This document shows positions 5,406 through 21,784 of a stretch of 22,567 nucleotides of DNA, in pieces. Position 1 is the first letter of the stretch. Each line of letters starts with the position of its first letter. A program made the position numbers and the translations under genes. The notes beneath the pieces are model-generated. The model saw only the letters and a program-made list of their open reading frames with translations, searched no databases and had not been told where the DNA came from. The stretch lies in the IMG/VR virus record IMGVR_UViG_3300017781_000159, positions 1 to 22,567 of that record; one strand, 5' to 3'. The stretch comes from a virus.

Positions 5406-6461
5406 TTATTGATGCATCTTTTCAATTTCTTCTTGTATCTCTTTTAATCTCTCAAGAGCACTAGATTGCCCCGTTGGACCTGACGGTGTTGCATATCGTT
5501 CAATACCTTCAGCTAAATCTACACATATTTTAAGCCATTCTTCAATTTGTGTAAAATAATGATCTGCATCTATTTGCCATGCCGGTGTTACAAACTTTAT
5601 ATCCTTTGCAGATATTAACATTAGTTCATCTTTTTTTGTATTAAATATCATCCTTTCGGCTCCTATAATAACCTGCGATTCTTGATAATCTACTAACGGC
5701 ATAGGTTCTTCAGGAGTTTGTCCGATGTTTGGTTGTGCTAATTCAAATCGTTTTATTTTTTGTTTTGATGTTAAATATATAAAACTTTTATCATCATCTG
5801 GTTCTTCAATTTTATAATATGGGTCATATGTATCTTCACCTGAATATCCGTCTAATAATCCTTTTACTTCACATGTAAGTGCTATAAATGGATCACCAGC
5901 TTTTTCTCCTTCCCAAAAAGGTTCTTCTTTATATTTATCTAATTCTAAATGAGTACTACTAAATCTAAAAATAGAACCAAATCTTGATGCTCTAATTATA
6001 TCTCCTTGAAATGGTTGTATAGGCAGTACATCTTTTTTTTCAAATGATACTTGTTTAGGTTCTGCTCCTGGTGAAACTTTTGATATTCCATCAGAACTAT
6101 ATCCTCTACCAGATACTTGTGAATCTTGTATAAATGGCATAATGGTATTATTAACTATTCCATGTGCATTTACTAGACACATATAATACCATCTATATTG
6201 ATTTAACTTTTCTGCCTTACCATCTATAGCATTATAAACCAAAACTTGTTCTCCGTATAAAGGTACATTTAACATCGTAGGATCGGCCGGAACAGCCCAT
6301 ACTTCAGAAGATGTAGTCATTTCTTTACCTCTGAGTCGTATACGTATTGTTCCAGGAGGATGATCTAAACCATCTTCATCTTGATATTTATCATAAAGTG
6401 TATGATCAGATTCAGGTTCTATCACTTGACAAATCTGTAGGGCTAGTTGTGATACTGCCAT
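5406..6461 (-). CDS. 5: Baseplate hub protein, gp5-like OB-fold
   Basis: 351 aa. Residues about 35-100 form an OB-fold-like strand set (GTIRIRLRG, VWAVPADPTMLNVPLYGEQVLVYNA split by short loops), and 149-170 carry the hub signature QPFQGDII..SRFGSIFRFSST, which is seen in gp5-like hub proteins of T4-like phages. The T4 gp5 lysozyme domain is absent, as is usual in T4-like phages outside the enterobacterial group. The C-terminal about 40 residues (SSALERLKEIQEEIEKMHQ) are a coiled coil, probably for trimerisation or hub-spike contact. The start overlaps the end of the upstream gene by 50 nt. Confidence 0.8.
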   Translation of the reverse strand: MAVSQLALQICQVIEPESDHTLYDKYQDEDGLDHPPGTIRIRLRGKEMTTSSEVWAVPADPTMLNVPLYGEQVLVYNAIDGKAEKLNQYRWYYMCLVNAHGIVNNTIMPFIQDSQVSGRGYSSDGISKVSPGAEPKQVSFEKKDVLPIQPFQGDIIRASRFGSIFRFSSTHLELDKYKEEPFWEGEKAGDPFIALTCEVKGLLDGYSGEDTYDPYYKIEEPDDDKSFIYLTSKQKIKRFELAQPNIGQTPEEPMPLVDYQESQVIIGAERMIFNTKKDELMLISAKDIKFVTPAWQIDADHYFTQIEEWLKICVDLAEGIERYATPSGPTGQSSALERLKEIQEEIEKMHQ

Positions 6462-6831
6462 CGTTCTTTATCTCCGGTTTATTGGTTTCTTTAATATTGT
6501 TTATTTCTTCTTCAGCTTCTTCTAATAATCGAGCTCGTTCATCTTCACTTAGTCCAAATTCATTTCCGTCATCATCTTTAGAACTAGCTGAAACAAGTCT
6601 TTGAACTACCGCTGCTAGTTTAACTAATGCATCGTCATTTTTAACTGATACTTCTAGATAATCTTTTATCATTGGTACAATTATTGATGCATCGCCTATA
6701 TTTTTTATCATTGGTTCTAAACTTTTAATTAACGTATCTATTTGACGCGACTTCTTTTTTGAGTTGTGATATACATCTCTCATTAGATCAGAAAAGTTTG
6801 TACCTTTAAATAATTCGAATTCTTGGCTCAT
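6412..6831 (-). CDS. Conserved phage protein upstream of hub gene (unknown)
   Basis: 139 aa, hydrophilic and helical. The N-terminal half (FKGTNFSDLMRDVYHNSKKK, then QIDTLIKSLEPMI) resembles small proteins that sit next to hub or tail genes in T4-like phages; the C-terminal half is acidic and coiled-coil-like (EDERARLLEEAEEEINN) with a Ser/Thr-rich tail. No enzymatic motif is seen. It overlaps the hub gene by 50 nt, which argues for tightly coupled expression. A CATATTTATA element lies 14 nt before the ATG, with an AAAGGA weak SD between, so it heads the baseplate operon. It may be an assembly chaperone or hub component; this is context only. Confidence 0.8.
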   Translation of the reverse strand: MSQEFELFKGTNFSDLMRDVYHNSKKKSRQIDTLIKSLEPMIKNIGDASIIVPMIKDYLEVSVKNDDALVKLAAVVQRLVSASSKDDDGNEFGLSEDERARLLEEAEEEINNIKETNKPEIKNDGSITTSPTDLSSDRT

Positions 6832-6867: not shown

Positions 6868-7644
6868 TTATGATATCAAATGACCGGATTTTGAATAGGA
6901 TGCGAACATTTTAGCATAATCTTTTTTCATTACATTGAGAACCTTTGTAATGTTTTGAGTCTTAAGACCTGTCCGTTCTCTTATAAGTATATAAAGAGCT
7001 TTTTTATTGAAGTTTTCTATATTATCTCGTATTCTAAATAATTCTAGGATTGTATCTGCTACTATAATATCTCGTTTATTTGTGAAAATAGAATTCATAT
7101 TCTTATCATACCATTCAACCCATAAATTTGTAAATTCTTTTAAAGATTCTTGATGATCTGATAATGCCATTTCTGCAGAGATATTTCTTCTATCATCTAA
7201 AATATCAGTACTCATACGTGCTTTCATTTTAGCATAATTAGCATTATTTTGAATTATCAAATAATTTTTAGCTATAATTGAAAAATATGAAAAGGCTTTA
7301 CCTTTACCTTCTTGAAATTTACCAATCTTCTGTACTAGAAATGCAACTACTTCTGCTTTAACATCTTCATATGGAACATCAAAATATGAAAATTTAAATG
7401 TATGATAAATATTTTCAACTAGTTTATTAAATGGATAATTAATATATTCTTTAAATACTCGATTTCTTTTTGACCAAGAAGGTTCTGAATTATATGCAAT
7501 AATTGCTTGATCTGTTATGTATGTAAAATATTGCTTCTTGCTAGGTTTACGACCTCTTCTTACACGTGGACCGTTTTCTTCTAGGTCTTTCATTTCAGCA
7601 GCATGCCATTCATAAAATTTTTGTACTGGGCTAAGTTCTTCCAT
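6868..7644 (-). CDS. 55: Late-transcription sigma factor, gp55-like
   Basis: 258 aa (T4 gp55 is 185 aa). Residues about 71-135 resemble sigma-70 region 2 as it appears in gp55 proteins: PFNKLVENIYHTFKF, the acidic YEDVKAEVVAFLVQKIGKF, then GKAFSYFSIIAKNYLI, which corresponds to the -10 recognition helix. Residues 216-245 (ALYILIRERTGLKTQNITKV...) look like a helix-turn-helix. T4 gp55 has no region 4 but ends in a sliding-clamp-binding tail, so this C-terminal module is notable. The N-terminal 45 residues are basic (RRGRKPSKKQ). The product is expected to redirect host RNA polymerase to late promoters. The gene precedes the baseplate operon and its candidate promoter. The TAA overlaps no neighbour; the ATG overlaps the upstream stop by one base. 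Confidence 0.8.
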   Translation of the reverse strand: MEELSPVQKFYEWHAAEMKDLEENGPRVRRGRKPSKKQYFTYITDQAIIAYNSEPSWSKRNRVFKEYINYPFNKLVENIYHTFKFSYFDVPYEDVKAEVVAFLVQKIGKFQEGKGKAFSYFSIIAKNYLIIQNNANYAKMKARMSTDILDDRRNISAEMALSDHQESLKEFTNLWVEWYDKNMNSIFTNKRDIIVADTILELFRIRDNIENFNKKALYILIRERTGLKTQNITKVLNVMKKDYAKMFASYSKSGHLIS

Positions 7645-7928
7645 TAAAATCCTTTATTTAAATCTTCTATTACTTCTTTAATTATTTTGAATGAAGTTCC
7701 TACTTCATCAGAAGCTTCAAATGCTCCTAATCGATCAGCATTTTTTATTACAGAATTAGATTGACCGACTTTTGTTTTTAATTGTTGAAAAAAGTTATAA
7801 TACTCAGTATTCGATGTTTCTAATTCATCTATATAATCAGTTTGAGTTTCTTGTTTTTTCAATTGATTAATATTAACAAATATAGATGTTAATAATAATA
7901 CTGATAAAATTATAATAGTTGTTATCAT
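7644..7928 (-). CDS. Small N-terminally membrane-anchored phage protein (unknown)
   Basis: 94 aa. Residues 1-18 (MITTIIILSVLLLTSIFV) are one TM helix; the remainder is a soluble helical domain ending in EASDEVGTSFKIIKEVIEDL. Proteins with a single TM helix followed by a coiled segment and a (F)E.SDEVG..F..IK motif are widespread in marine T4-like phages, generally next to gp55 or replication genes, without a known function. The start is ATGA, overlapping the HD gene's stop by 4 nt; the stop shares one base with the sigma-factor start. This tight spacing argues for a polycistronic mRNA. Confidence 0.75.
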   Translation of the reverse strand: MITTIIILSVLLLTSIFVNINQLKKQETQTDYIDELETSNTEYYNFFQQLKTKVGQSNSVIKNADRLGAFEASDEVGTSFKIIKEVIEDLNKGF

Positions 7929-8683
7929 TTGTTATCTCCAAATAAATCATCAAACATTTTAGATGCATTAACTTTTGTTTGAGGATTGGTTATTATCTTT
8001 GACTTTCTTTTCATAGATGTAGTTGTAATTGGTTTATTATTATTCCATCTTTCAAATTCTATTCTAGCTGCCATTAAATCTGCCTGATGCATTACAAATC
8101 CTAAATTAGTTTTTAATTTAGAATCAGCTGTTCTGGACATGAAATATGGTTTATTACTTTCATCATATAATCCATCTGTCAATTTAATTCCTAACATTTC
8201 ATTCCAAGTGATGCTAATACCATAATGTTGCAATAGCCAAATAGATAGGTCATTTACGAGGGTGAATTGGTTGTTAGGATTAACCTTATACATCCTTCCC
8301 ATATTCTTTCTATGCCATTCAGAATCATTAGGAATATATGTTTCATTACCTTCTCCAGGAAATCCCATTTTGCCAATATCATGATTTAATGCTGTAAAAA
8401 TTAATTCTTCTTTAGTATAACCAGACATATCTGCTCCCATTCTTGTCCATAAATCATATACCTCATGAGCACAATCAATTACTCGTAAAACATGATCTAC
8501 ATAACCGCCATCAAATGCATTATGATAATGATCAATACTAGATGCTGGTTGAGTTGACATTCTATCTTCTAAATCTGTATACATAGATAATAGTTTAGTT
8601 TGTCTTTCTCCTGTAAATTCCGTTCTAATTACTTCTAATAAACGTTCCCAATTTTCTACTATTTGTTCTGCTGTTAATTTCAT
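7925..8683 (-). CDS. HD-domain phosphohydrolase
   Basis: 252 aa. It has an HD-superfamily metal site: His64 in GGYVDHVLRV, the His101-Asp102 pair in ALNHDIGKMG and Asp202 in MHQADLMAARIE, in the correct order and spacing. HD enzymes hydrolyse phosphate esters of nucleotides (dNTPs, NMPs, ppGpp-like or cyclic nucleotides); the substrate here cannot be told from sequence. Insert 110-135 (FPGEGNETYIPNDSEWHRKN) sits where substrate loops lie in related phage HD proteins. The C-terminal 40 residues are basic then acidic and probably disordered. It is encoded between the co-chaperonin gene (3 nt gap) and the small membrane protein (4 nt overlap). A role in nucleotide-pool control during infection is inference. 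Confidence 0.85.
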   Translation of the reverse strand: MKLTAEQIVENWERLLEVIRTEFTGERQTKLLSMYTDLEDRMSTQPASSIDHYHNAFDGGYVDHVLRVIDCAHEVYDLWTRMGADMSGYTKEELIFTALNHDIGKMGFPGEGNETYIPNDSEWHRKNMGRMYKVNPNNQFTLVNDLSIWLLQHYGISITWNEMLGIKLTDGLYDESNKPYFMSRTADSKLKTNLGFVMHQADLMAARIEFERWNNNKPITTTSMKRKSKIITNPQTKVNASKMFDDLFGDNK

Positions 8684-8686
8684 ATC

Positions 8687-8992
8687 TTAATTATTTGACG
8701 ATACCATTGATATTTCTGATTCTCTAACTAGTAAATATTTTACATCTTCTAGAATTATTTCATTTCCATTTTTACCTGATAATAATCTATTTGCTGCTAA
8801 TACAACATCTCCTACTTTACACGTCATTGGAATTTTATCTCCTGTTTGAGTAAATAATCCTGGTCCTACTGCTATAACATCTGCATAACCATATTCAGGT
8901 GCACTTGTTGTAAGTATAATTCCATTTACAACATTTTCTTTTTGTTCTTTTGCTTTTAATAAAAGCTGGTCTCCCATAGGTTTCATTTTCAT
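8687..8992 (-). CDS. GroES-like co-chaperonin
   Basis: 101 aa, the usual GroES length. The N-terminus MKMKPMGDQLLLKAKEQ matches the GroES opening strand. Residues about 18-32 form the mobile loop ending in GIIL (the GroEL-contact motif, GIVL in E. coli), and PEYGYADVIAVGPG and CKVGDVVLAANR match the conserved beta-barrel core. In T4, gp31 replaces GroES so that GroEL can fold the major capsid protein gp23. This protein is more canonical in sequence than gp31. The neighbour upstream is a ClpP-like protease, so the pair forms a proteostasis unit under one promoter. Confidence 0.92.
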   Translation of the reverse strand: MKMKPMGDQLLLKAKEQKENVVNGIILTTSAPEYGYADVIAVGPGLFTQTGDKIPMTCKVGDVVLAANRLLSGKNGNEIILEDVKYLLVRESEISMVSSNN

Positions 8993-9006
8993 AACTTATT
9001 CTTTTT

Positions 9007-9639
9007 TTATATTATTTGATCTATAACTCCAATTTCTAATAATTCTTCAGATGTTAAAAAACAATCTGATCTCATTTTATTTTTCCACCAGTCGGCATCT
9101 TTTTTAGTTTTTTCTGCTAACATGCCATAAATAATTTTTTCTAAACTTTTTACATTATCTAGATATGCTGTTATATCTGACATCTTACCTCCTAGAAAGC
9201 TAGATGATTGATGAAACATTACTGTTGAACGTTTACTCATCATTCTATTTCCAGTACCACATGTTAAAATTATGGCGGCGGCTGAAAATGCTCTACCTCT
9301 ACAAATTGTATTGACTTTAACATCTAATGATTCAATATAATCTATTATACCAAACATTTCATAAATGTCTCCACCTGGTGAATTAATCATTAAATTAATT
9401 GGAGCTGTTTTGTTTCGTCTATGTTGTAATAAACTTCTCATACGTATAATAAAATCTGTTAACGTATGTTCTCCTATTTCATCACTTAAAAATATAACTG
9501 AATCTTCATAATCCAATTGTGTTCCTATTTGATTATGTAATGATTCATAATCACCAGCTGGTTTATTTATTACAGGTTGTTCTTGTAACTGTTCGTCTTG
9601 TTTCTGTGCCTTTAAAGGCTGTTCTTCATATATACTCAT
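9007..9639 (-). CDS. clpP: ClpP-like serine protease
   Basis: 210 aa, similar in size to bacterial ClpP. The catalytic triad is intact: Ser119 in GRAFSAAAIIL, His143 in VMFHQ and Asp192 in RSDCFLT. The head-strand motif INSPGGDIYEMFGI (85-98) is conserved. The first about 45 residues (Gln/Glu/Lys-rich) are a non-homologous extension in place of a normal propeptide. ClpP forms tetradecameric chambers fed by ClpX or ClpA; no such ATPase is in the window, so it may use the host unfoldase. In other phages, ClpP-family enzymes also act as prohead proteases, but the sequence here is closer to true ClpP than to capsid proteases, and no capsid gene is adjacent. Its promoter element ends only 5 nt before the ATG. 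Confidence 0.92.
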   Translation of the reverse strand: MSIYEEQPLKAQKQDEQLQEQPVINKPAGDYESLHNQIGTQLDYEDSVIFLSDEIGEHTLTDFIIRMRSLLQHRRNKTAPINLMINSPGGDIYEMFGIIDYIESLDVKVNTICRGRAFSAAAIILTCGTGNRMMSKRSTVMFHQSSSFLGGKMSDITAYLDNVKSLEKIIYGMLAEKTKKDADWWKNKMRSDCFLTSEELLEIGVIDQII

Positions 9640-9644
9640 ATAAC

Positions 9645-9676
9645 TTAATATAATAACTTTTATTCGTAATTCCTAA
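9645..9676 (-). promoter_or_regulatory. Sigma-A-like promoter for clpP-groES-HD operon
   Basis: Coding strand: TTAG, exactly 20 nt, TATATTAA; the spacer begins GAATTACGAA, as in the other class-B copies. The last base of the -7-type box is 5 nt before the clpP ATG, so transcription should start at or next to the start codon (leaderless mRNA). It sits wholly in the 38-nt gap between clpP and the upstream gene. Confidence 0.7.
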
Positions 9677-9677
9677 T

Positions 9678-10211
9678 CTATTTAACTTTTTTTAATTGAC
9701 GCTGTAATTTCTTTAATTGTGTATTGCCGGCATTTATATCTTTCTTCCATTTAGCCTTCTTTAGTTGACCTCTAACCATAGCCATTTGTTCTAATATAGC
9801 CTGTTCCAATCTCAATCTTTCTGATTTAGATAATTTCTTTTTATCTTTTTTAGGTTCTATTTTGGTTGGTTTTAAAGTTCCTTTCAACTTAACTTGTTCT
9901 TTACCCTTATGAAATACATTGCCATCCTTATCAACAAACTCTTTCATGAATTGCCATCCTCTTGGACGACCTTTTGAAACATAGCCACCTTTTATGTCCG
10001 GTGGTGGAACTGTTTTACAAACACATCTCCAACATAATACTGCAGTAGAATCTGCATTAACAGCTGTATAATGAAAACATCTTGGACCGTTAGCTAATTT
10101 AGGCCATGCCCAATAACTTGTATCTTCAATACTATTTCGACAAATCATTTCATGTTTGCCTTTATTTCTTCTTGTATGAAATTTATGTGTAACTTTTTTC
10201 TTTTTTGCCAT
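9678..10211 (-). CDS. Basic Cys-containing conserved phage protein
   Basis: 177 aa, very basic, with Lys-rich ends (MAKKKKVTHK; QLKKVK). It contains five Cys: C24, C45 and the cluster C60-x2-C63-x-C65 (LCWRCVC), a plausible zinc-binding knuckle. A strongly conserved-looking core follows: KGRPRGWQFMKEFVDKDGNVFHKGKEQ split at 80-106, and KLKGTLKPTKIEP. Proteins with this GRPRGW.FMKEFVDKDG.VFHKGKEQ signature are common in marine T4-like phages and have no assigned function. The AT-hook-like GRPRG, zinc knuckle and basic tails fit nucleic-acid binding, but this is inference. The gene ends in the run that leads to the clpP promoter. Confidence 0.8.
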   Translation of the reverse strand: MAKKKKVTHKFHTRRNKGKHEMICRNSIEDTSYWAWPKLANGPRCFHYTAVNADSTAVLCWRCVCKTVPPPDIKGGYVSKGRPRGWQFMKEFVDKDGNVFHKGKEQVKLKGTLKPTKIEPKKDKKKLSKSERLRLEQAILEQMAMVRGQLKKAKWKKDINAGNTQLKKLQRQLKKVK

Positions 10212-10229
10212 AACTTTAATTTTTAATTA

Positions 10230-11294
10230 TTAACTCCAATATCCATTACCACGACTAGGAGGAGGTTTTGGTTTTGGTTTTGGTTTTTCATCATATATAT
10301 CTGGAAGAGGTTCTTGTTCATCATCTTCATCATCATCTTCATCATCATAATCTTCTATTCCTTCAGTTAAATCTTCTTTAACCTCTTCTTCAGTTATTAA
10401 CGGTTCATCTTCAAATACAATCTCTCGATCTGCCCAATCACCTAATGGTTCTCTCATATCAGGAACTTCTTCTGGTATATTCATATCTTCTTTTGATTTA
10501 ATTTGAGCAAATGCAAAATTTGCTGCTACTACCATTGCAATAGCTAATGGGTCAAATACAAATATAATTAATAATAAGAACCAATTAACTACTTGTCCCA
10601 TATCCTTACCAGTTGTCTCTGATAAGTATTTTAATGGACCAAGTTCTCTTTGCTCTTCATTACCTATTTCCAATTCTAATAATTGAGTATCAAGTGATAG
10701 GATAGAATCTTGTACCGCTTCTAACTTTACATTTATAGTATCTCTATCTGCAATTGTTAATGACAGTTCTGATTGTAATGCTCTCCTAGCTGAACTAGAT
10801 GATGTTGTAATTACTTGGCCTGCTTCTTCTGAATAATATGATACTGAAGTTGGACTAGATAATGATTTTCTTAAATCAGATATAGTTGTATTCAATTGCG
10901 TCTTTTCAATTGTTAAGTCTGTTTTATTTTCTTCAAACCTAATTTGTTTAGTTTCTAATACTGCAAGTGACTTATCTAAAAATTCAGACTTGGTTGCTGT
11001 TTCTTGATAAGCTCCGGATAAGAATCCATATATACCACCACTAGTAATTATGATTAAAACAAATACCGCAATGGATAAATAAGCTCTTAACCATTTATTA
11101 ATAGTATCCCAGTACTGGTATAGTAAAGATGCACAAACAAGTTTAGCAAATTCTAACGAACCGGCCATTATAATTACTTGTGTACTTGCTCCTGCAAACA
11201 ATTTACTCAATCCAAATACAGAATAGAATGCAGCTGAACCTGAAACGGCTAATGCTGCTAGACCTATTAAGAATGGAAATATTCTTGCTTTCAT
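10230..11294 (-). CDS. Multi-pass membrane protein with coiled coil and acidic tail
   Basis: 354 aa. TM helices are visible near 4-25, 38-60 and 68-92, followed by a long coiled coil (about 105-225, with Ser-rich break SSSSARRA) and another TM segment near 235-262 (WFLLLIIFVFDPLAIAMVVA). The C-terminal about 90 residues are cytoplasmic-looking: very acidic (DYDDEDDDEDDEQE near 318-332), then KPKPKPKPPP and an aromatic end. The matching DNA is low-complexity (GGTTTT repeats near 10264-10290, GAT repeats near 10320-10350), prone to length variation. Similar coil-containing membrane proteins occur in T4-like phages of marine hosts, with unknown function. Possible roles are superinfection exclusion, inner-membrane anchoring of phage complexes, or sensing. 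Confidence 0.75.
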   Translation of the reverse strand: MKARIFPFLIGLAALAVSGSAAFYSVFGLSKLFAGASTQVIIMAGSLEFAKLVCASLLYQYWDTINKWLRAYLSIAVFVLIIITSGGIYGFLSGAYQETATKSEFLDKSLAVLETKQIRFEENKTDLTIEKTQLNTTISDLRKSLSSPTSVSYYSEEAGQVITTSSSSARRALQSELSLTIADRDTINVKLEAVQDSILSLDTQLLELEIGNEEQRELGPLKYLSETTGKDMGQVVNWFLLLIIFVFDPLAIAMVVAANFAFAQIKSKEDMNIPEEVPDMREPLGDWADREIVFEDEPLITEEEVKEDLTEGIEDYDDEDDDEDDEQEPLPDIYDEKPKPKPKPPPSRGNGYWS

Positions 11295-11295
11295 T

Positions 11296-11469
11296 TTAAC
11301 TAGCCGTACATCGGTCTGTAATAAATTGTAACTTTTGTCTTATTGTTCGGAATCTATTTCTAATTTCAAGTGGATCAATTGGTTGTCCTTTTGATACAGC
11401 TTGATCGATAATCATTATCATGTTATCGACATCATCTAGGTGTCTTAAGACATTTTCTCTATCTTTCAT
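11296..11469 (-). CDS. 57-aa helical protein (unknown)
   Basis: A short gene read directly from the minus strand: ATG at 11469-11467, TAA at 11298-11296, beginning MKDRENVLRHLDDVDNMIMI and ending TDRCTAS. The start is an ATGA overlap with the UvdE stop codon, and the stop is 1 nt before the next ATG, so it fills the space between two genes exactly. The product is two amphipathic helices separated by KGQPIDPLEI. Tight coupling and sensible composition support a real gene; no function can be suggested. Confidence 0.7.
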   Translation of the reverse strand: MKDRENVLRHLDDVDNMIMIIDQAVSKGQPIDPLEIRNRFRTIRQKLQFITDRCTAS

Positions 11470-12452
11470 ACTAAAACTTTTTTATTATTATTATATTGAT
11501 AAATATTGCGATATTCGAAAAGTGCTAATTCTTTTGCCTTAGCTTCTATAACAATATCTAATTCATGATCATATGTATTAATCTCATCTTTTATATAATC
11601 TGAATGTGCTTGTGCCCTAATTTTAGGGTCTTGTTTTTCTTTTGCTCTACTTTCTGAATAATGACAACATTGTCTAACATCTTTTGGCCAAGTAGAACCT
11701 GCTAATTCTAATGCTTCTTGTTCGGTCAACTCATCTGGGTGGAATGTATGGTGGTGGTAATCAAATGTAATTGGAATACCTATTTCTTTATGAAAATAGT
11801 TATATAACATTCTAGTCGACCACATACTAGGTTTATCATCATTTTCTAATACTACTCTTTTCTTACAACTATCAGATAATTGATGCCATCCTGCAATCCA
11901 TCTTTTCGATGTACCTACAAAATCTCCTCCATATGAACCACCTACATGAATGTTAATTTTATTTTCAAATGAAGGTTCAAATCCCATAAGGTCAAATGTT
12001 TCGCTATGACGTTCTAAACTAATAATCGTACGTCTTACTACCTCCGGGTTGGGAGATCCTAATACATTAAATGGCCCTGGATGGGTAGTTACTCTAATAC
12101 CATGTTCACGTGCATATTCTCCACATTCCATTAGTTTGGCAGAAATATCTTTAAACTGAGGAAGTTCACATAATTCATAATGATCATGCCAAGGAAATAA
12201 TTCAGACCCTAATCGAAATAATGTAATCTTATGTTCTTTATTCCATTGTAGATAATGTAACAAGTCGTTTGCATTAAGTAGTGTTCTTTCTCCTAATAAA
12301 TGTAAGTCCCAATCTTTTGATTTTGTTGAGCCATTCTGCCATGTTGCTTTTCTTGCTGTTCTAGAAGTAGTTACTCTACCTCCTAATTTATTTGGTCGGT
12401 TAGTTAATGTCATGTTAACACATGCATAACCTAATCTTACTTTCTCATTCAT
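11466..12452 (-). CDS. uvsE: UV-damage endonuclease (UvdE/UvsE family)
   Basis: 328 aa, the usual length for the family. It opens with VRLGYACVNMTL (5-16), the typical UVDE start. The TIM-barrel metal and active-site motifs are present in order: FRLGSELFPW (79-88), THPGPFNVLG (123-132), INIHVGGSYG with His169, VLENDD with Glu203, FDYHHHTFHP with Asp231 and His233-235, and CHYSESR near 263-269. The enzyme nicks DNA immediately 5' of cyclobutane dimers, 6-4 photoproducts and some abasic sites, starting alternative excision repair. The ligase gene lies two genes upstream, which could seal the nicks. The start is set by the conserved opening and lies 4 nt from the promoter box. Confidence 0.93.
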   Translation of the reverse strand: MNEKVRLGYACVNMTLTNRPNKLGGRVTTSRTARKATWQNGSTKSKDWDLHLLGERTLLNANDLLHYLQWNKEHKITLFRLGSELFPWHDHYELCELPQFKDISAKLMECGEYAREHGIRVTTHPGPFNVLGSPNPEVVRRTIISLERHSETFDLMGFEPSFENKINIHVGGSYGGDFVGTSKRWIAGWHQLSDSCKKRVVLENDDKPSMWSTRMLYNYFHKEIGIPITFDYHHHTFHPDELTEQEALELAGSTWPKDVRQCCHYSESRAKEKQDPKIRAQAHSDYIKDEINTYDHELDIVIEAKAKELALFEYRNIYQYNNNKKVLV

Positions 12453-12456
12453 ATTA

Positions 12457-12488
12457 TTAATATATAAAAAATTTTTCGTAAATCCTAG
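12457..12488 (-). promoter_or_regulatory. Sigma-A-like promoter for uvsE
   Basis: Coding strand: CTAG, 20 nt, TATATTAA, with the class-B spacer GATTTACGAA. The -33-type box overlaps the stop codon of the lipoprotein gene, and the -7-type box ends 4 nt before the uvsE ATG. This arrangement predicts a leaderless transcript. Confidence 0.65.
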
Positions 12489-12754
12489 TAATTAGGATAA
12501 ATACATAATTCATTATCACAAGCAGAGCTATTTCTAAAATATGCTTCTGTAACACATACGCCGTTCACATATGGCTCAAAATTTACAGCATCCCAGTCAC
12601 AACAAAATGTATTAATCATACTTACATCTGGTTTAGACCTTTCTGGAATATCTATAAACTCTTGTTTTTCACATCCAGTTAACACTGTTAACAATGTCAA
12701 CACTATAACCCAAAAGGCTATGACAATAATACTTGCTATTTTTCTTTTTAACAT
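12485..12754 (-). CDS. Small Cys-rich lipoprotein
   Basis: 89 aa. A basic N-terminus (MLKRK), a hydrophobic helix (7-25) and the lipobox LTGC with Cys28 form a lipoprotein signal peptide. The mature part is about 62 residues with five further Cys (51, 52, 67, 79, 84), suggesting disulfides in the periplasm or outside the cell. The residues after Cys28 (EKQEF) are charged, roughly like the acidic export signal that sends Bacteroidota lipoproteins to the surface, though not an exact match. Phage lipoproteins are known to block receptors or superinfection (for example T5 Llp). Such a role is plausible but unproven. The stop overlaps the uvsE promoter; the ligase gene ends 15 nt upstream. Confidence 0.8.
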   Translation of the reverse strand: MLKRKIASIIVIAFWVIVLTLLTVLTGCEKQEFIDIPERSKPDVSMINTFCCDWDAVNFEPYVNGVCVTEAYFRNSSACDNELCIYPNY

Positions 12755-12769
12755 ATAACTAATTTTAAA

Positions 12770-14065
12770 TTAAACATTTCTTCCATTTTCAAAAACATGT
12801 TTTACGGTCGGAAATCGTAAACTTAACTCTCCTTGTTGATTTTTTGATTCTTCAAAATATTGAACGGTAATTGTTTTTCCAATTATTGCATTTGGGTCAG
12901 CTTCATATTTTATTCGTTGTTCTTGATTCCAACCAGAACCAACTGCAACTTTATAACCTTTATGACTAATATAAGCTTGGCCCATCATTTTAACTACAAC
13001 TTCTTTACCTTCTCTAATAATTCTATGATCTTCAAAATCAATACTTTCAACTATATATTCAGCATCATAAAACTTTTTTACTTTTAATAAATTTTGAGAT
13101 CTCTTACCTTCATACCCTACATTCTTTCTTAACATAATTCCTTCATGTCCTTCTTTCTCTGCATTAGCTTTCAATTCACCAAAATGAATATCTCCATTAA
13201 CAACTACTTGACCTAGAACTGACATTGAATCTTCATTTTTTAACATTACGTCTAATTTTGCAAATCTAGCAATCCTTTGTACTAATGTCATTTCACTTAC
13301 TTTATTATTAAACTCTGTCAATGTCAAATAATCAAACATTACATATTTAGGATTGTCAATAGTATGATCTTTTCTTTTGATTTGTTTCATAATACCTTGA
13401 AAATCTTCATTACCATTTTCATCCATCAAACAAATCTCCCCATCAAATACAATACCTCTAACTCCTAATCTACCTACTGCATCTTTAACAACTTGTAATG
13501 TCGTAAACTCATTACCTACTCTAGAATAACATTTAACATTACCATGGATATCTACTACTGTAATACATCTTACGCCATCTAACTTTCTAGATGCTAACCA
13601 TATATCGTCCCAATTAACTCGTTTAGGGTCAAACTTATTTGCTAATGCAACATCAAAGGTTGGAATCAATCCTGGAATAACTTTATTGATAACTGATTCA
13701 GAAGCTCTAATCTCTAAATTTCTATCTATAATACTAAAGATCAAATCTTCATATTCTGAATATTGAGCAATAAATCCATTTACCATTGCAATTGCATCAT
13801 GTCCTGTATATACCCTATCATTGAGGTCGTTTAACAAATGAAATATACTAGTATGAATCAAATTCATATCACATAAGTCTGAACGTTTCTTACATGTTTT
13901 ACTTGTTACATAATATTTCTTATACGGATCAAATGTATAAACTAATGCACTTTTAATGAATGTATTCTTTCCATAGGCATTAATAATAGTTTTCTTTGCA
14001 TTGAGTGAACTTGTACTTTTCATTTCATCTACAAATGCTTGGAGTTCTTTTAGGCTTATTTTCAT
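12770..14065 (-). CDS. ATP-dependent DNA ligase
   Basis: 431 aa, between T7 ligase (359) and T4 gp30 (487). The nucleotidyltransferase core has motif I SRKLDGVR (Lys161 is the adenylated residue), motif III VFDGEICLMD, IIIa YVMFDYL, motif IV HEGIMLRK and motif V LLKVKKF. The C-terminal OB domain is recognisable from IIGKTITVQYFEES and GELSLRFPTVKHVF, which favours a DNA ligase over an RNA ligase. Residues 1-150 form a helical N-terminal domain as in the gp30 type. The product would seal nicks in replication and in repair with the nearby UvdE. The gene has its own class-A promoter 24 nt upstream. Confidence 0.9.
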   Translation of the reverse strand: MKISLKELQAFVDEMKSTSSLNAKKTIINAYGKNTFIKSALVYTFDPYKKYYVTSKTCKKRSDLCDMNLIHTSIFHLLNDLNDRVYTGHDAIAMVNGFIAQYSEYEDLIFSIIDRNLEIRASESVINKVIPGLIPTFDVALANKFDPKRVNWDDIWLASRKLDGVRCITVVDIHGNVKCYSRVGNEFTTLQVVKDAVGRLGVRGIVFDGEICLMDENGNEDFQGIMKQIKRKDHTIDNPKYVMFDYLTLTEFNNKVSEMTLVQRIARFAKLDVMLKNEDSMSVLGQVVVNGDIHFGELKANAEKEGHEGIMLRKNVGYEGKRSQNLLKVKKFYDAEYIVESIDFEDHRIIREGKEVVVKMMGQAYISHKGYKVAVGSGWNQEQRIKYEADPNAIIGKTITVQYFEESKNQQGELSLRFPTVKHVFENGRNV

Positions 14066-14089
14066 ATTTTAATCTTTTTATTTATATAA

Positions 14090-14121
14090 TAAAGATAAGG
14101 AAAATATTTCAATTAGGCAAA
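14090..14121 (-). promoter_or_regulatory. Sigma-A-like promoter for the ligase gene
   Basis: Coding strand: TTTG, exactly 20 nt, TATCTTTA. The spacer starts CCTAATTGAAATAT (class A), and an A-tract (AAAAAAAGC) lies just upstream, like an UP element. The box ends 24 nt before the ATG at 14065. Confidence 0.75.
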
Positions 14122-14268
14122 GCTTTTTGAAGCTTTTTTTAAAAATATTTAATATAAAATTAATATTAGATTAATATGATTGATATGAAATTATGTTATT
14201 TATTAATATGAAAAGGCAAATAGATATAACAACTTTTATATATATTGTAATGATGATTTCAATATTCC
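14122..14268. other. Noncoding AT-rich spacer
   Basis: About 150 nt of almost pure A/T between the 64-aa gene and the ligase promoter. It contains a 7-bp inverted repeat (AAAGCTT, loop TTTG, AAGCTTT at 14119-14136) that touches the -33 box of the ligase promoter. It is followed by a T run only on the plus strand, so it is not a terminator for the minus-strand genes. No supported gene is seen. Confidence 0.5.
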
Positions 14269-14463
14269 TTATTGCTCTATAATCTCAGCATCTTGAATAG
14301 TCTCACAACAATATAGTATACCATTTTTACGTAATAATGTATCTGTTCTTGTCCATTCTTTCATAACATTTGTATCAAAATTTGGATGAAGATCTTGTTC
14401 ACGAAATTTTCTATTTACTTTAAGTAAAATATCTTTAAATTTTATTAATTCTAATTGATACAC
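14269..14463 (-). CDS. 64-aa conserved-type phage protein, GTG start
   Basis: 64 aa. The only usable start is GTG at 14463-14461, because an in-frame TAA lies just upstream with no ATG between. The protein (LIKFKDILLKVNRKFREQDL, then MKEWTRTDTLLRKNGILYCC) resembles small T4-like phage proteins with an NFR...W..T.TLL...G.LYFC pattern, which supports a real gene of unknown function. The start codon is inside the 15-bp inverted repeat at 14461-14475 and no SD is visible, so expression is probably low or coupled to the upstream DUF2061 gene, whose stop is 15 nt away. Confidence 0.6.
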   Translation of the reverse strand: MYQLELIKFKDILLKVNRKFREQDLHPNFDTNVMKEWTRTDTLLRKNGILYCCETIQDAEIIEQ

Positions 14464-14475
14464 TGCGGGTTGGTT
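14461..14475. repeat. 15-bp inverted repeat, left copy
   Basis: CACTGCGGGTTGGTT on the plus strand. It is the exact reverse complement of 15167-15181. The similarity extends a few bases further outward (TAATTGAT) with a 2-nt indel. The G+C-rich core stands out against its AT-rich surroundings. Confidence 0.85.
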
Positions 14476-14478
14476 TAA

Positions 14479-14688
14479 TTAATTGTTTTTAGTTCCAAAT
14501 TTTGATCGTAACCAAATTCGTTCATGAAAATAATACAAAATAAATTTAGTAAATAATTCTAATGCGCCTATTTTCAAACCCATTAATGGACTACCAGTTA
14601 TTATCCATCCTAGTGTCATTGTATCCAATGTTCCTATAATTCTCCAACTGATAGCTTTTAATAAGCTTCTTGTTTTAGTTACTTTCAT
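14479..14688 (-). CDS. DUF2061 small membrane protein
   Basis: 69 aa. The sequence SLLKAISWRIIGTLDTMTLG (8-27), then ITGSPLMGLKIGALELFTKF and ILYYFHERIW, matches the DUF2061 family: KA.SWR..GT at the start, GS...A..IG..E...K in the middle and the YY.HER.W end. The family comprises two-TM inner-membrane proteins of unknown function found in many marine bacteria and in some phages. It lies 10 nt downstream of the Hsp20 gene, inside the interval bounded by the inverted repeats. Confidence 0.8.
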   Translation of the reverse strand: MKVTKTRSLLKAISWRIIGTLDTMTLGWIITGSPLMGLKIGALELFTKFILYYFHERIWLRSKFGTKNN

Positions 14689-14698
14689 TTTTGAACTC

Positions 14699-15112
14699 TT
14701 ACTTTATCGTAACTGTTTTTGGTTTAGCTGCTTCTGTAAGAGGAGCAAACAAATGCAATAAACCGTTCTCTAATTTAGCATCCAATTTGCTCAAATCAAA
14801 TCTTCTACTAATTCTCCATCCTAGATTAAATGCTCTTTTAGCAATATTTCTATGGATGTAATCAGCTTCATTAGCTGATGTCTCTTTTTTATATTCTACT
14901 TTTAAGATATCTTCTTCTATTGTAATATCAATATCTTTTTTTATCAAGCCAACACAAGCAATATCGATATTAAGACCGTCATTGGCCTCATATATGTCTA
15001 CTGGATGATTGATTTTGATTTGGTCAAATGGAACAAATTTTCCGTTTGAATTGAAAAAATCCTTTATCAGGATGTCGAATGGCGATATGCCGAATGGTGT
15101 TAAATTTCCCAT
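14699..15112 (-). CDS. Small heat-shock protein (Hsp20/alpha-crystallin)
   Basis: 137 aa. The alpha-crystallin domain spans about 35-130: PVDIYEANDGLNIDIACVGL, then KKDIDITIEEDILKVEYKKE (strand 5-6 region), the RRFDLSKLDA segment and the family signature LENGLLHLFAPL (114-125). The C-terminal VTI gives the short I/V-x-I/V tail that mediates oligomers. The N-terminus (PFDILIKDFF) is typical. Hsp20 proteins are common in T4-like phages of marine hosts, where they probably protect folding virion proteins. A strong SD (AAGGAG at 15120-15125) lies 7 nt before the ATG, and a CATATTTATA element is 85 nt upstream, which leaves an 80-nt leader containing the repeat copy. Confidence 0.95.
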   Translation of the reverse strand: MGNLTPFGISPFDILIKDFFNSNGKFVPFDQIKINHPVDIYEANDGLNIDIACVGLIKKDIDITIEEDILKVEYKKETSANEADYIHRNIAKRAFNLGWRISRRFDLSKLDAKLENGLLHLFAPLTEAAKPKTVTIK

Positions 15113-18038: not shown

Positions 18039-18064
18039 ATATTCTATTTTTTAATTTATATTAT

Positions 18065-18096
18065 TTAATATAAGGATAATATTTCATATATCCTAA
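18065..18096 (-). promoter_or_regulatory. Sigma-A-like promoter (class A)
   Basis: Coding strand: TTAG, exactly 20 nt, TATATTAA. The spacer starts GATATATGAAATAT. An A-rich tract (AAAAAAGTTAACAAAAG) is just upstream. It drives the run from 18038 leftward. Confidence 0.7.
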
Positions 18097-18115
18097 TCTT
18101 TTGTTAACTTTTTTA

Positions 18116-18370: not shown

Positions 18371-18428
18371 TTATTAATTTTTAAATTTTGATTTACTTAT
18401 GGCTAAATCTTCTCCCTTTATATTAATA

Positions 18429-18460
18429 TAAAGATAAGGAATATATTTCAATTATCCTAA
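18429..18460 (-). promoter_or_regulatory. Sigma-A-like promoter (class A)
   Basis: Coding strand: TTAG, exactly 20 nt, TATCTTTA; the spacer GATAATTGAAATATATTCCT is near identical to the ligase copy. It lies between the terminator at 18482-18513 and the 84-aa gene, so it restarts transcription after the terminator. Confidence 0.75.
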
Positions 18461-18481
18461 TCTTTTGTTGAAAAAGTTTAC

Positions 18482-18513
18482 AAAAAAATAGGGAGCCTAT
18501 TATGACCCCCTAT
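18482..18513 (-). terminator. Rho-independent terminator
   Basis: On the minus strand ATAGGGGG pairs with CTCCCTAT (8 bp, one G-U) around a 10-nt loop and is followed by TTTTTTT. It begins 14 nt after the stop of the 73-aa membrane protein gene and ends the outer-membrane protein operon. It is the clearest intrinsic terminator in the window. Confidence 0.85.
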
Positions 18514-18526
18514 CTAATTCAATTAA

Positions 18527-18748
18527 TTACTTTGTAAAAAATGACATAATAATTACTAATGCTACTAGTCCAATAAATCCACCATTTAAGAATGTATTTA
18601 ATAGAGTAGTAATGTTAGCAATAACATCAAATCCTAGAACTGAAGTTCCAGTTAATACAAACCATAAAATTGCTAATGGGATAAGTCCTAAAAATACAGT
18701 TACTAAACTGCCAACAAATCCATTTACCATTTTAAATACTGAGTCCAT
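18527..18748 (-). CDS. Small two-TM membrane protein
   Basis: 73 aa, almost entirely hydrophobic. TM1 is about 12-35 (GSLVTVFLGLIPLAILWFVL) and TM2 about 50-71 (TFLNGGFIGLVALVIIMSFF), with a short loop holding SVLGFDVIAN. There are few charges (one Lys at each end). The size and layout would suit a class II holin or a small membrane regulator, but no holin-specific feature (basic tail, dual start) is seen. It follows the outer-membrane protein gene in one operon, shares a leader hairpin with it and ends at the terminator. Confidence 0.8.
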   Translation of the reverse strand: MDSVFKMVNGFVGSLVTVFLGLIPLAILWFVLTGTSVLGFDVIANITTLLNTFLNGGFIGLVALVIIMSFFTK

Positions 18749-18776
18749 ATTGTTTCTCTTTATTTATTTTGTTTAC

Positions 18777-18788
18777 GGCACTATTGCC
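18777..18788 (-). repeat. Repeated leader hairpin, copy 1
   Basis: GGCAATAGTGCC on the coding strand: a 4-bp stem around ATAG, 28 nt before the ATG of the two-TM protein. It is identical over 12 nt to the copy at 19253-19264. This is too small to be a terminator and no T run follows; a role in mRNA processing, stability or translation is suggested by its repetition. Confidence 0.6.
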
Positions 18789-18817
18789 AATGTTGATTAG
18801 AGAGCTCATTCACTAAT

Positions 18818-19228
18818 TTAGAATTTAAAACCGAAGCCTATTCCTAGGTTAACAGTTTCACTTCCCGCGTTATAAACGAGTTTTGGGTCAACATAAACAT
18901 TACTTCTTAATGTAAATTGTTTACCAAGACCTAATTCAATCTCATCAAAATTGAGACCAGTCATTCCAGCATGTACAAACATACCGTTCCAAAAATATTT
19001 AGCATAAAAATCTAATGCTAAATCAGCGTCCGCATCTTCTTGTGATACAGAACCGCCTATTACTAATGCATCCGTAAATGCAAATCCAATTGTTGGCGTT
19101 ACCGCCCAATCAGTCCAAGCAACGTTCACGACATCGCTTGTTCCTACATACCAAGTTCCCTTGGTGTTTTGTGCTTGAGATGCAGTCATACCGCATATCA
19201 AAACTAAAATTAAAAATAATTTTTTCAT
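18818..19228 (-). CDS. Outer-membrane beta-barrel protein with signal peptide
   Basis: 136 aa. A Sec signal peptide (MKKLFLILVLICGMTASQAQ) has the ...AQ ending typical of Bacteroidota exported proteins. The mature part of about 116 residues is strand-rich with alternating aromatic and small residues (GTWYVGTSDVVNVAWTDWAV, then PTIGFAFTDALVIGGSV, LDFYAKYFWNGMFVHAG, VNLGIGFGFKF) and ends in Phe, the usual outer-membrane assembly signal. It fits a small 8-strand OmpX/OmpA-like barrel. Its G+C appears somewhat higher than its neighbours', which fits a host-derived gene. It is preceded by a class-B promoter and a 135-nt leader. A role in altering the host surface or excluding other phages is inference. 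Confidence 0.85.
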   Translation of the reverse strand: MKKLFLILVLICGMTASQAQNTKGTWYVGTSDVVNVAWTDWAVTPTIGFAFTDALVIGGSVSQEDADADLALDFYAKYFWNGMFVHAGMTGLNFDEIELGLGKQFTLRSNVYVDPKLVYNAGSETVNLGIGFGFKF

Positions 19229-19252
19229 AATAAAATTTCCTTTTTTTATTGA

Positions 19253-19264
19253 GGCACTATTGCC
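19253..19264 (-). repeat. Repeated leader hairpin, copy 2
   Basis: GGCAATAGTGCC on the coding strand, extended to a 5-bp stem by flanking A/T, 24 nt before the ATG of the outer-membrane protein. It is identical to the copy at 18777-18788 and followed by an A-rich tract with AAAGGA before the start. On the plus strand the hairpin is followed by T6, but no plus-strand gene would use it. Confidence 0.6.
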
Positions 19265-19324
19265 TTTTTTATTTACAGGAACTCTCTAATAATAGTACTT
19301 GCATCAACATACAAACACTAAGCA

Positions 19325-19348
19325 AATGTACACACTAATGCGTACATT
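19325..19348. repeat. 7-bp inverted repeat in the long leader
   Basis: AATGTAC and GTACATT separated by 10 nt, 16 nt downstream of the class-B promoter box. It could be an RNA stem-loop in the leader or an operator for a dimeric regulator. A perfect 14-base dyad is uncommon in such AT-rich DNA, but no second copy was seen. Confidence 0.5.
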
Positions 19349-19363
19349 ATTCTAAATATTAAT

Positions 19364-19395
19364 TAAATATATAAAAACTTTTTCGTAAAACCTAA
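19364..19395 (-). promoter_or_regulatory. Sigma-A-like promoter (class B) for the outer-membrane protein operon
   Basis: Coding strand: TTAG, exactly 20 nt, TATATTTA, with spacer GTTTTACGAAAAA. It begins 8 nt after the stop of the 132-aa gene. The leader from this box to the ATG is 135 nt, the longest in the window. Confidence 0.7.
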
Positions 19396-19402
19396 TATAA
19401 CC

Positions 19403-19801
19403 TTATAATTGTTTTGGGATTGGAATCGCTCGGCGACCCCCCTTTGTGCGTAACTGTTCTAATTCTTCTGCTATTTCTTGTTCTGCTTTTATTTGTTGCA
19501 TGAGGACACCTTTGTCCTCTAAAACTCCTTCAAGTGACTTATAGCTATCATAGGATGTATCGGAACCTGCTGCAGCACTTTTTGCTGTATTAAGTGCTCC
19601 TTCTAATCTTGTCATTATTTCCTTACGTAAGGCTGATCTAGCCATGGTTCCGAATCCTACAATATGTACTTCTGGATCAACAGGGTCAAACTGCTCTGAA
19701 TCTAATAAACCACCATATTGGTATGTACGTTCAGCAAGAACGTCTTTAACCTCTTGTATAATTATTCCTTTTAGCTTATTTCTCAAATCTTGTTTTTTCA
19801 T
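19403..19801 (-). CDS. Hypothetical protein with amphipathic N-terminal peptide (132 aa)
   Basis: 132 aa, soluble, helical. The N-terminus (KLKGIIIQEVKDVLAERTYQ) resembles the openings of the proteins starting at 5039 and 22551. The middle contains HIVGFGTMARSALRKEIMTR and a long helix (SLEGVLEDKGVLMQQIKAEQEIAEELEQL split at G), and the end is basic (TKGGRRAIPIPK). It is probably a virion or internal protein, because this N-terminal type recurs next to structural genes; no family is recognised. It lies 3 nt downstream of the coiled-coil/TM gene. Confidence 0.7.
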   Translation of the reverse strand: MKKQDLRNKLKGIIIQEVKDVLAERTYQYGGLLDSEQFDPVDPEVHIVGFGTMARSALRKEIMTRLEGALNTAKSAAAGSDTSYDSYKSLEGVLEDKGVLMQQIKAEQEIAEELEQLRTKGGRRAIPIPKQL

Positions 19802-20706: not shown

Positions 20707-20747
20707 ATCTCTTAATTTTTAATCTTTTATATCTAATTACTTATATA

Positions 20748-20779
20748 TAAAGATAAGGTAAATATCTCGTAATACCAAA
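20748..20779 (-). promoter_or_regulatory. Sigma-A-like promoter (class A) for the 48-aa gene
   Basis: Coding strand: TTTG, exactly 20 nt, TATCTTTA. The spacer begins GTATTACGAGATATTTACC, mixing the TTACGA of class B with the -7 box of class A. An AAAAAAGCTGCCAAAAGA tract lies upstream, partly in the 3' end of the nucleotidyltransferase gene. Confidence 0.75.
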
Positions 20780-20795
20780 TCTTTTGGCAGCTTTT

Positions 20796-21527: not shown

Positions 21528-21551
21528 ATCTTTATCTTTTTATCTTATATA

Positions 21552-21583
21552 TAAAGATAAGAAATATATTTCAATTAGGCAAA
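21552..21583 (-). promoter_or_regulatory. Sigma-A-like promoter (class A) for the nucleotidyltransferase gene
   Basis: Coding strand: TTTG, exactly 20 nt, TATCTTTA; the spacer CCTAATTGAAATATATTTCT is near identical to that before the ligase gene. The TTTG box directly abuts the stop codon of the upstream 66-aa gene. Confidence 0.75.
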
Positions 21584-21784
21584 TTATTTATTAGCTTTTT
21601 TTGATTTATTTTCGTGGTATAGTCGAACGACTTTATCTCTGGCGTATCTCCAGCAATCACGGGTATCACGATATCGATGATGATCTTGATCTCTCATCTT
21701 TTTTAATTGAGCATCAAATTTTCTTTTTAATTTAAGTTCTTTGATTTCCTCATGAATGTCCCAATATATATCTTCGTATGACAT
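21584..21784 (-). CDS. Small basic helical protein (66 aa)
   Basis: 66 aa, charged and rich in Lys, Arg, Asp, Tyr and His (DIYWDIHEEIKELKLKRKFD, then MRDQDHHRYRDTRDCWRYAR). It is predicted to form one long helix or helical hairpin, with no TM or signal peptide. No family is recognised. It starts 2 nt after the stop of the 54-aa gene (TAG TT ATG) and ends next to a promoter box, so it belongs to the two-gene unit that starts at 21951. Confidence 0.65.
   Translation of the reverse strand: MSYEDIYWDIHEEIKELKLKRKFDAQLKKMRDQDHHRYRDTRDCWRYARDKVVRLYHENKSKKANK

Follow-up and report, generated by a model that had tools for sequence, protein, structure and literature searches.

A conserved phage gene pair for a predicted outer-membrane barrel and a two-helix membrane protein, with complementary RNA segments flanking the barrel gene, in uncultured T4-like phages

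Results

The window, which is an entire 22,567-base IMG/VR record from a T4-like phage with baseplate wedge gp6 (phrog_219) and gp25, carries two adjacent genes predicted to encode a small exported barrel of eight strands and, next to it, a two-helix membrane protein. Across relatives the two genes remain adjacent as a single-copy unit whose genome position shifts from one phage lineage to another. In most lineages a leader segment (P) is complementary to a segment between the genes (P'), such that the predicted RNA helix would close the barrel reading frame into a loop of its own, between both ribosome-binding regions. The RNA elements flanking the barrel gene (Table 1) are new here and go beyond the preliminary description of the window. 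Our joint reading, which we offer tentatively as a possibility, is a phage-specific two-gene envelope cassette with a loop-closing mRNA helix, acting in superinfection exclusion.

Table 1. Features of the gene pair and its flanks in the window
Feature	Position	Strand	Remarks
Intrinsic terminator after two-helix gene	18486..18515	-	12-pair stem and T tail
Two-helix membrane protein	18527..18748	-	ORF; 73 aa
Hairpin H2 (GGCA-ATAG-TGCC)	18777..18788	-	before ribosome-binding site of two-helix gene
Second intergenic segment P2' (ATCAACAT)	18790..18797	-	two-base overlap with P'
RNA segment P', between genes (GAGCTCTCTAAT)	18796..18807	-	complementary to P
Outer-membrane beta-barrel protein (predicted)	18818..19228	-	ORF; 136 aa, mature part ~117 aa, signal peptide residues 1-19
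Hairpin H1 (GGCA-ATAG-TGCC)	19253..19264	-	before ribosome-binding site of barrel gene
RNA segment P, leader (ATTAGAGAGTTC)	19279..19290	-	pairs with P' across barrel ORF; probability 0.97 in full mRNA
Second leader segment P2 (ATGTTGAT)	19303..19310	-	pairs with 18790-18797; can extend long-range helix
Stem-loop H0, 5' end of leader (TGTACGCATTAGTGTGTACA)	19327..19346	-	inverted repeat; other stems at same place in relatives
Promoter-like 21-nt motif (ACGAAAAAGTTTTTATATATT)	19366..19386	-	second copy 12459-12479

The preliminary description had read the first gene as a signal-peptide protein with a strand-rich mature part and a terminal Phe, and all three features were borne out. The N-terminus, MKKLFLILVLICGMTASQA/QN, resembles a Bacteroidota-type signal peptide with putative cleavage at ..SQA/QN, and the terminal residue, Phe136, is at least 90% conserved. 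An AlphaFold2 model of the protein, a structure prediction being proposed at the outset as a check on the barrel claim, is indeed a barrel, with 8 strands and moderate confidence (20 relatives; pLDDT 77, pTM 0.72). The solved folds nearest to it in Foldseek were designed 8-stranded transmembrane barrels and the barrels of OprF and OmpA (best E 1.1e-3), and soluble lipocalin barrels were also among the matches; the match to Pfam OMP_b-brl fell below the family cut-off (20.0 bits against 28.7, E 8.6e-4), with a relative (L111) scoring 15.7 bits. The protein thus combines a signal peptide, an even number of amphipathic strands and a C-terminal aromatic residue, as beta-barrels do, with closure predicted. 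Because no fold was found below E 0.001 and lipocalins appeared as well, the outer-membrane reading draws jointly on the signal peptide, the terminal Phe, the fold and the weak Pfam match, and on these we take the product to be a putative exported outer-membrane barrel.

The second gene starts 69 nt past the barrel stop codon. Hydropathy and conservation point to two hydrophobic helices with lysines at either end, and AlphaFold2 placed helices at residues 2-33, 42-55 and 58-71, in agreement with the earlier assignment of a two-TM partner. Two motifs are conserved, G-[FM]-D-V-x-A-N-[LI]-T in the loop and GGF-x-GL-x-x-L at the C-terminus. A Foldseek search of BFVD with the two-helix model gave no match.

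When 2.9 million viral contigs were scanned with alignments of the two proteins, the barrel had 207 relatives there and the two-helix protein at least 493. All of them lie on metagenomic contigs, many incomplete, and since loci overlap, counts are given on distinct sequences where so stated. Of the 162 barrel loci, 158 had the two-helix gene directly downstream, and no other order was seen among 244 loci, so the co-occurrence in related phages on which the preliminary description had staked its proposal was found; distinct pairs number about 100. The one complete case of a barrel without its partner is a single sequence present twice (L225 and L228), and the barrel loci L210 and L213 are cut near a contig end. 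Viewed from the other gene, 158 of 170 loci have the barrel gene adjoining; the two-helix protein occurs without it in L081, L181 and a diverged group (L086, L091, L095 and L107), so the pair is not obligate from this side. L108 is another diverged relative lacking a barrel partner, and L107 has no convincing same-strand neighbour gene at all. Each gene was present in one copy in all 15 large records. The notion of a self-contained pair, in which a two-helix membrane protein accompanies an exported barrel-like protein, therefore holds across relatives.

No family was assigned to either protein by PHROGs, Pfam or a sequence search of PDB, and neither had an isolate-phage match by tblastn in 50,697 phage records. 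The statement that no described phage system is equivalent accordingly stands for Pfam, PHROGs, these phage records and the literature searched. When bacterial and archaeal genomes (84,980 species) were scanned with the barrel alignment, the sole match was in a MAG named Candidatus Nitrosopelagicus, on a contig that is phage-like (L244); a bacterial source was thus not found by this pattern-based scan, which would miss distant relatives.

The surroundings of the pair were compared by clustering of neighbour genes at 101 distinct loci, which gave at least five neighbourhoods. The commonest, A (57 loci), lies within the tail-gene run, between a homologue of the gene at 6868-7644 of the window and the baseplate genes; B (23 loci) lies between the gp21 protease and scaffold/gp23; C (9 loci) is as in the window; and D and E, the latter a looser group, account for 3 and 7 loci, respectively. 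Genes beside the pair in relatives include those for the gp20 portal, gp21 protease and gp23 capsid protein. On a tree of both proteins there were 12 changes of neighbourhood, a count that is soft because many inner branches are weak, although the starred branches alone still force several. The genes that flank site A are adjacent to each other in the window (6868-7644 and 6412-6831), with the pair absent there, and Flavobacterium phage immuto likewise has nothing inserted at site A.

Neighbourhood A also bears on a role in lysis, in which the two-helix protein would be a class II holin or pinholin while the barrel, substituting for a spanin, would weaken the outer membrane. The two-helix protein is small, with two helices and lysines at both ends, and would resemble a class II holin of N-in/C-in topology (topology as read from the lysines only); moreover, an N-terminally anchored SLT transglycosylase is encoded three genes upstream of the pair in this neighbourhood. 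However, a class II holin is expected to be the phage's lysis gene and to sit beside an endolysin, and the SLT gene is linked to the pair in A only, being elsewhere at a distance (140 kb versus 114 kb in G003; 14 kb versus 5 kb in G006). Any periplasmic domain of either protein would be too short to bridge the periplasm, and in 10 of 15 large records a holin of phrog_3427 (Pfam GTA_holin_3TM) is encoded at a distance from the pair, so that the pair is less needed for lysis. We consider such a role unlikely. The anchored transglycosylase itself (L165:3078-3650) has relatives in 9 of 19 records and is possibly the endolysin of these phages.

The preliminary description placed the pair in a dedicated operon between a class-B promoter and a strong terminator. 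Such an arrangement is seen in the window and the neighbourhood type closest to it, but most relatives have the pair in the tail-gene run or between the prohead protease and scaffold genes. The terminator was confirmed, and the surrounding 2.9-kb region holds four terminator-type sites against 0.8 expected. As for the promoter, the 21-nt motif is a real repeat, its second copy differing at one position (0 copies expected) and lying just upstream of a uvdE-like gene, and the motif also precedes the pair in L006, L209 and L242; a sigma-70 scan found no excess of promoter matches, and the motif may act as a promoter. A different sequence of 44 nt occurs four times before genes in the window (18062-18105, 18426-18469, 20745-20788 and 21549-21592), the copies being 73-84% alike, and is probably a second class of promoter.

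The intergenic gap measures at least 50 nt in 70 of the 101 loci, and in these the segments P, ~65 to 25 nt ahead of the barrel start, and P', ~10 to 25 nt past the barrel stop, are complementary. The sequences themselves differ widely, as in TTAGAGAGCTC/GAGCTCTCTAA, TTAGAGAGATC/GATCTCTCTAA, TTAGAGAGTC/GACTCTCTAA and GCGCGATG/CATCGCGC, or CGAAAGCATGTT/AACATGCTTTCG, GAGAGCATT/AATGCTCTC and ACTGAAGG/CCTTCAGT, and the match is kept in at least 13 sequence classes. The mean Watson-Crick run was 8.9 for a P with its own P' versus 5.7 for a P with the P' of another class, and in 50,000 permutations (one representative for each of 13 classes) the observed sum was never reached. RNAalifold recovered the helix together with H2 from 13 class-I sequences, with three pairs changed on both sides, and folding of the full mRNA gave the helix a mean probability of 0.75-1.0 in 14 of 15 loci, the exception being L190. 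At the place equivalent to P2/P2', other relatives have GGGTGT/ACACCC.

A small hairpin stands ahead of each ribosome-binding site in many classes. The stem of H1 varies with pairing kept (GCCA..TGGC, GACA..TGTC, GGTA..TACC), and H2 is conserved in relatives as GGCAAnnnTGCC-ACAAAAC. With this tail, 32 of the 38 sense-strand matches to H2 in 854 kb fell within the intergenic gap of the pair. The combined P'-H2 DNA pattern was found in 15 stretches among the 2.9 million IMG/VR viral contigs, every one at this gene pair, whereas 9 of 27 matches to the exact H2 pattern by itself were in contigs without the pair; P' plus H2 is therefore diagnostic and H2 alone is not. No Rfam family reached its gathering score in a cmscan of 18400-19460 (three sub-threshold matches). 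L200 and L221 have a third hairpin of the H2 type, with the ACAAAAC tail (GACAATAGTGTCACAAAAC); it directly follows the stop codon of the gene upstream, ~110-120 nt ahead of the barrel start. Occlusion of the second gene's ribosome-binding site by P' was considered as well and dropped, since only the CTCTCT classes are consistent with it.

Could the complementarity be a by-product of a duplicated control sequence, each gene being preceded by the same hairpin, or of selecting the best match? In the window H1 and H2 are similar to each other (direct repeat D3), and the purine-rich leaders resemble ribosome-binding sites. Yet P and P' are complements and not copies of each other, several classes (GCGCG.., CGAAAGCATG.., CTGAAGG..) are unrelated to ribosome-binding sites, and permutation among classes together with shuffles rejects chance choice, which leaves this explanation very unlikely. 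Alternatively, the segments might be inverted repeats in DNA that bound the barrel gene and allow a recombinase to flip or move it; palindromes do lie beside them, and the unit does change place between lineages. Single internal mismatches in the helix were G.U in eight distinct cases and A.C in one (the remaining single mismatches lie mostly outside the helix), a bias on the sense strand that is expected of pairing in sense RNA and not of a DNA repeat. The right-hand repeat sits between the two genes and so cannot bound a moving unit; the barrel gene was never inverted relative to its partner in ~160 loci; and no recombinase gene recurred beside the pair in the loci compared. We regard this explanation as very improbable.

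The helix was present in 64 of 69 loci of neighbourhoods A, C and D. None of the 30 loci of the capsid-type neighbourhoods B and E had a qualifying helix, the gaps there being shorter than 50 nt, and the helix is thus not needed for the proteins to work. The intergenic gap of the pair is short, and simple co-translation across it could also take place with the helix playing no role. The association of helix absence with neighbourhood comes down to three independent tree contrasts, and because these coincide with a Shine-Dalgarno-poor phage group (sites at 1% of genes in B and E phages versus 30% in A, C and D), the absence may be a lineage effect. The Shine-Dalgarno-poor group has a TATTAAC-A-rich sequence ahead of its starts.

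Discussion

Small barrels encoded by phages are already known. Lom of phage lambda is an outer-membrane barrel of the Ail/OmpX kind, and barrels are also listed for cyanophages, Cellulophaga phages and Tenacibaculum phages. These are likewise small and exported, but they are not sequence relatives of the barrel described here, as tblastn against the 50,697 phage records gave no match. What these searches did not turn up in any known system is a fixed combination of a barrel and an inner-membrane partner that is kept through repeated relocation.

The closest functional likeness is to Imm and Spackle of T4, a pair of small envelope proteins that confer superinfection exclusion (PMC7677548, PMC11436027). 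There too a T4-like phage makes two such proteins, of which one is in or at the inner membrane and the other is exported, and early resistance to further phages is the outcome we propose. The differences are that Spackle is a soluble periplasmic lysozyme inhibitor and not a barrel, that exclusion has been shown for T4 only, and that no RNA helix has been described for Imm/Spackle. Nor did we find a sequence relation to Imm or Spackle: matches to Pfam and PHROG families stayed at noise level, and isolate phages gave no match.

For the RNA helix, the nearest parallels are in bacteria. Leader-trailer helices flank the transcribed unit of rRNA operons and close it into a loop (PMC10250234); those helices are long and enclose rRNA, whereas here a helix of 8-13 bp surrounds a phage mRNA reading frame. 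For bacterial operon mRNA, the idea has been put forward that each ORF folds as a unit of its own (PMC5318159), an ORF-centred structure from which the present case differs in having a dedicated, conserved helix in untranslated gaps and a hairpin before each start. If the long-range helix works as RNA, it would be a clear case of ORF loop-closure inside a phage operon. In the simplest reading, loop closure would set the translation or the lifetime of the barrel message relative to that of the two-helix message, and it may insulate the unit from a varying neighbourhood, independent of upstream transcription, as would fit a moving unit.

The preliminary description offered receptor masking, superinfection exclusion or envelope stabilisation as possible functions, and each is compatible with the sequence evidence. 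In the exclusion reading, and with less certainty than for the RNA, one protein would reside in the outer and the other in the inner membrane of the infected cell, and they would keep further phages from entering, much as Imm and Spackle do. It is favored by the presence of two small proteins, membrane-bound or exported, that are found only in phages, and by the separate holin in the 10 large records. Surface proteins in an arms race are often variable; the predicted surface loop L1 (AWTDW) of the barrel is about as conserved as the strands, which counts against exclusion. The conserved loops fit envelope maintenance as well as exclusion, and our confidence in the function is for this reason modest. 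In maintenance, the barrel would be a pore or plug and the two-helix protein an inner-membrane stabiliser, which together would keep the swollen infected cell intact or alter uptake, with no anti-phage role. Loops that are conserved and not variable, a pair that is single-copy and widely kept, and its position among late genes in many phages all agree with this; on the other hand, neither protein has an enzyme or transport signature, and the loops of the barrel model are very short. We consider maintenance conceivable, if somewhat unlikely.

A broader version of the exclusion reading would be a mobile envelope module with its own RNA insulation, in which the covarying helix would fix the ratio of barrel to partner wherever the module lands and the two proteins would jointly act as a superinfection barrier across both membranes in a large uncultured group of T4-like phages; as a whole, we hold this to be doubtful. 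Should superinfection exclusion prove true, the pair would provide a first entry point to such systems among uncultured T4-like phages that probably infect Bacteroidota. The host assignment draws on the style of the signal peptide and on a Flavobacterium phage among the nearest isolates, which by comparison of a baseplate protein are Microcystis phage Mel-JY01 (47%) and Flavobacterium phage immuto (41%); tblastn found no match to the barrel or the two-helix protein in either phage. The phage of the window also carries a cluster of stress-type genes at 7644-15112, encoding Cpn10 (8687-8992), ClpP (9007-9639), UvdE (11466-12452), an ATP-dependent ligase (12770-14065) and Hsp20 (14699-15112).
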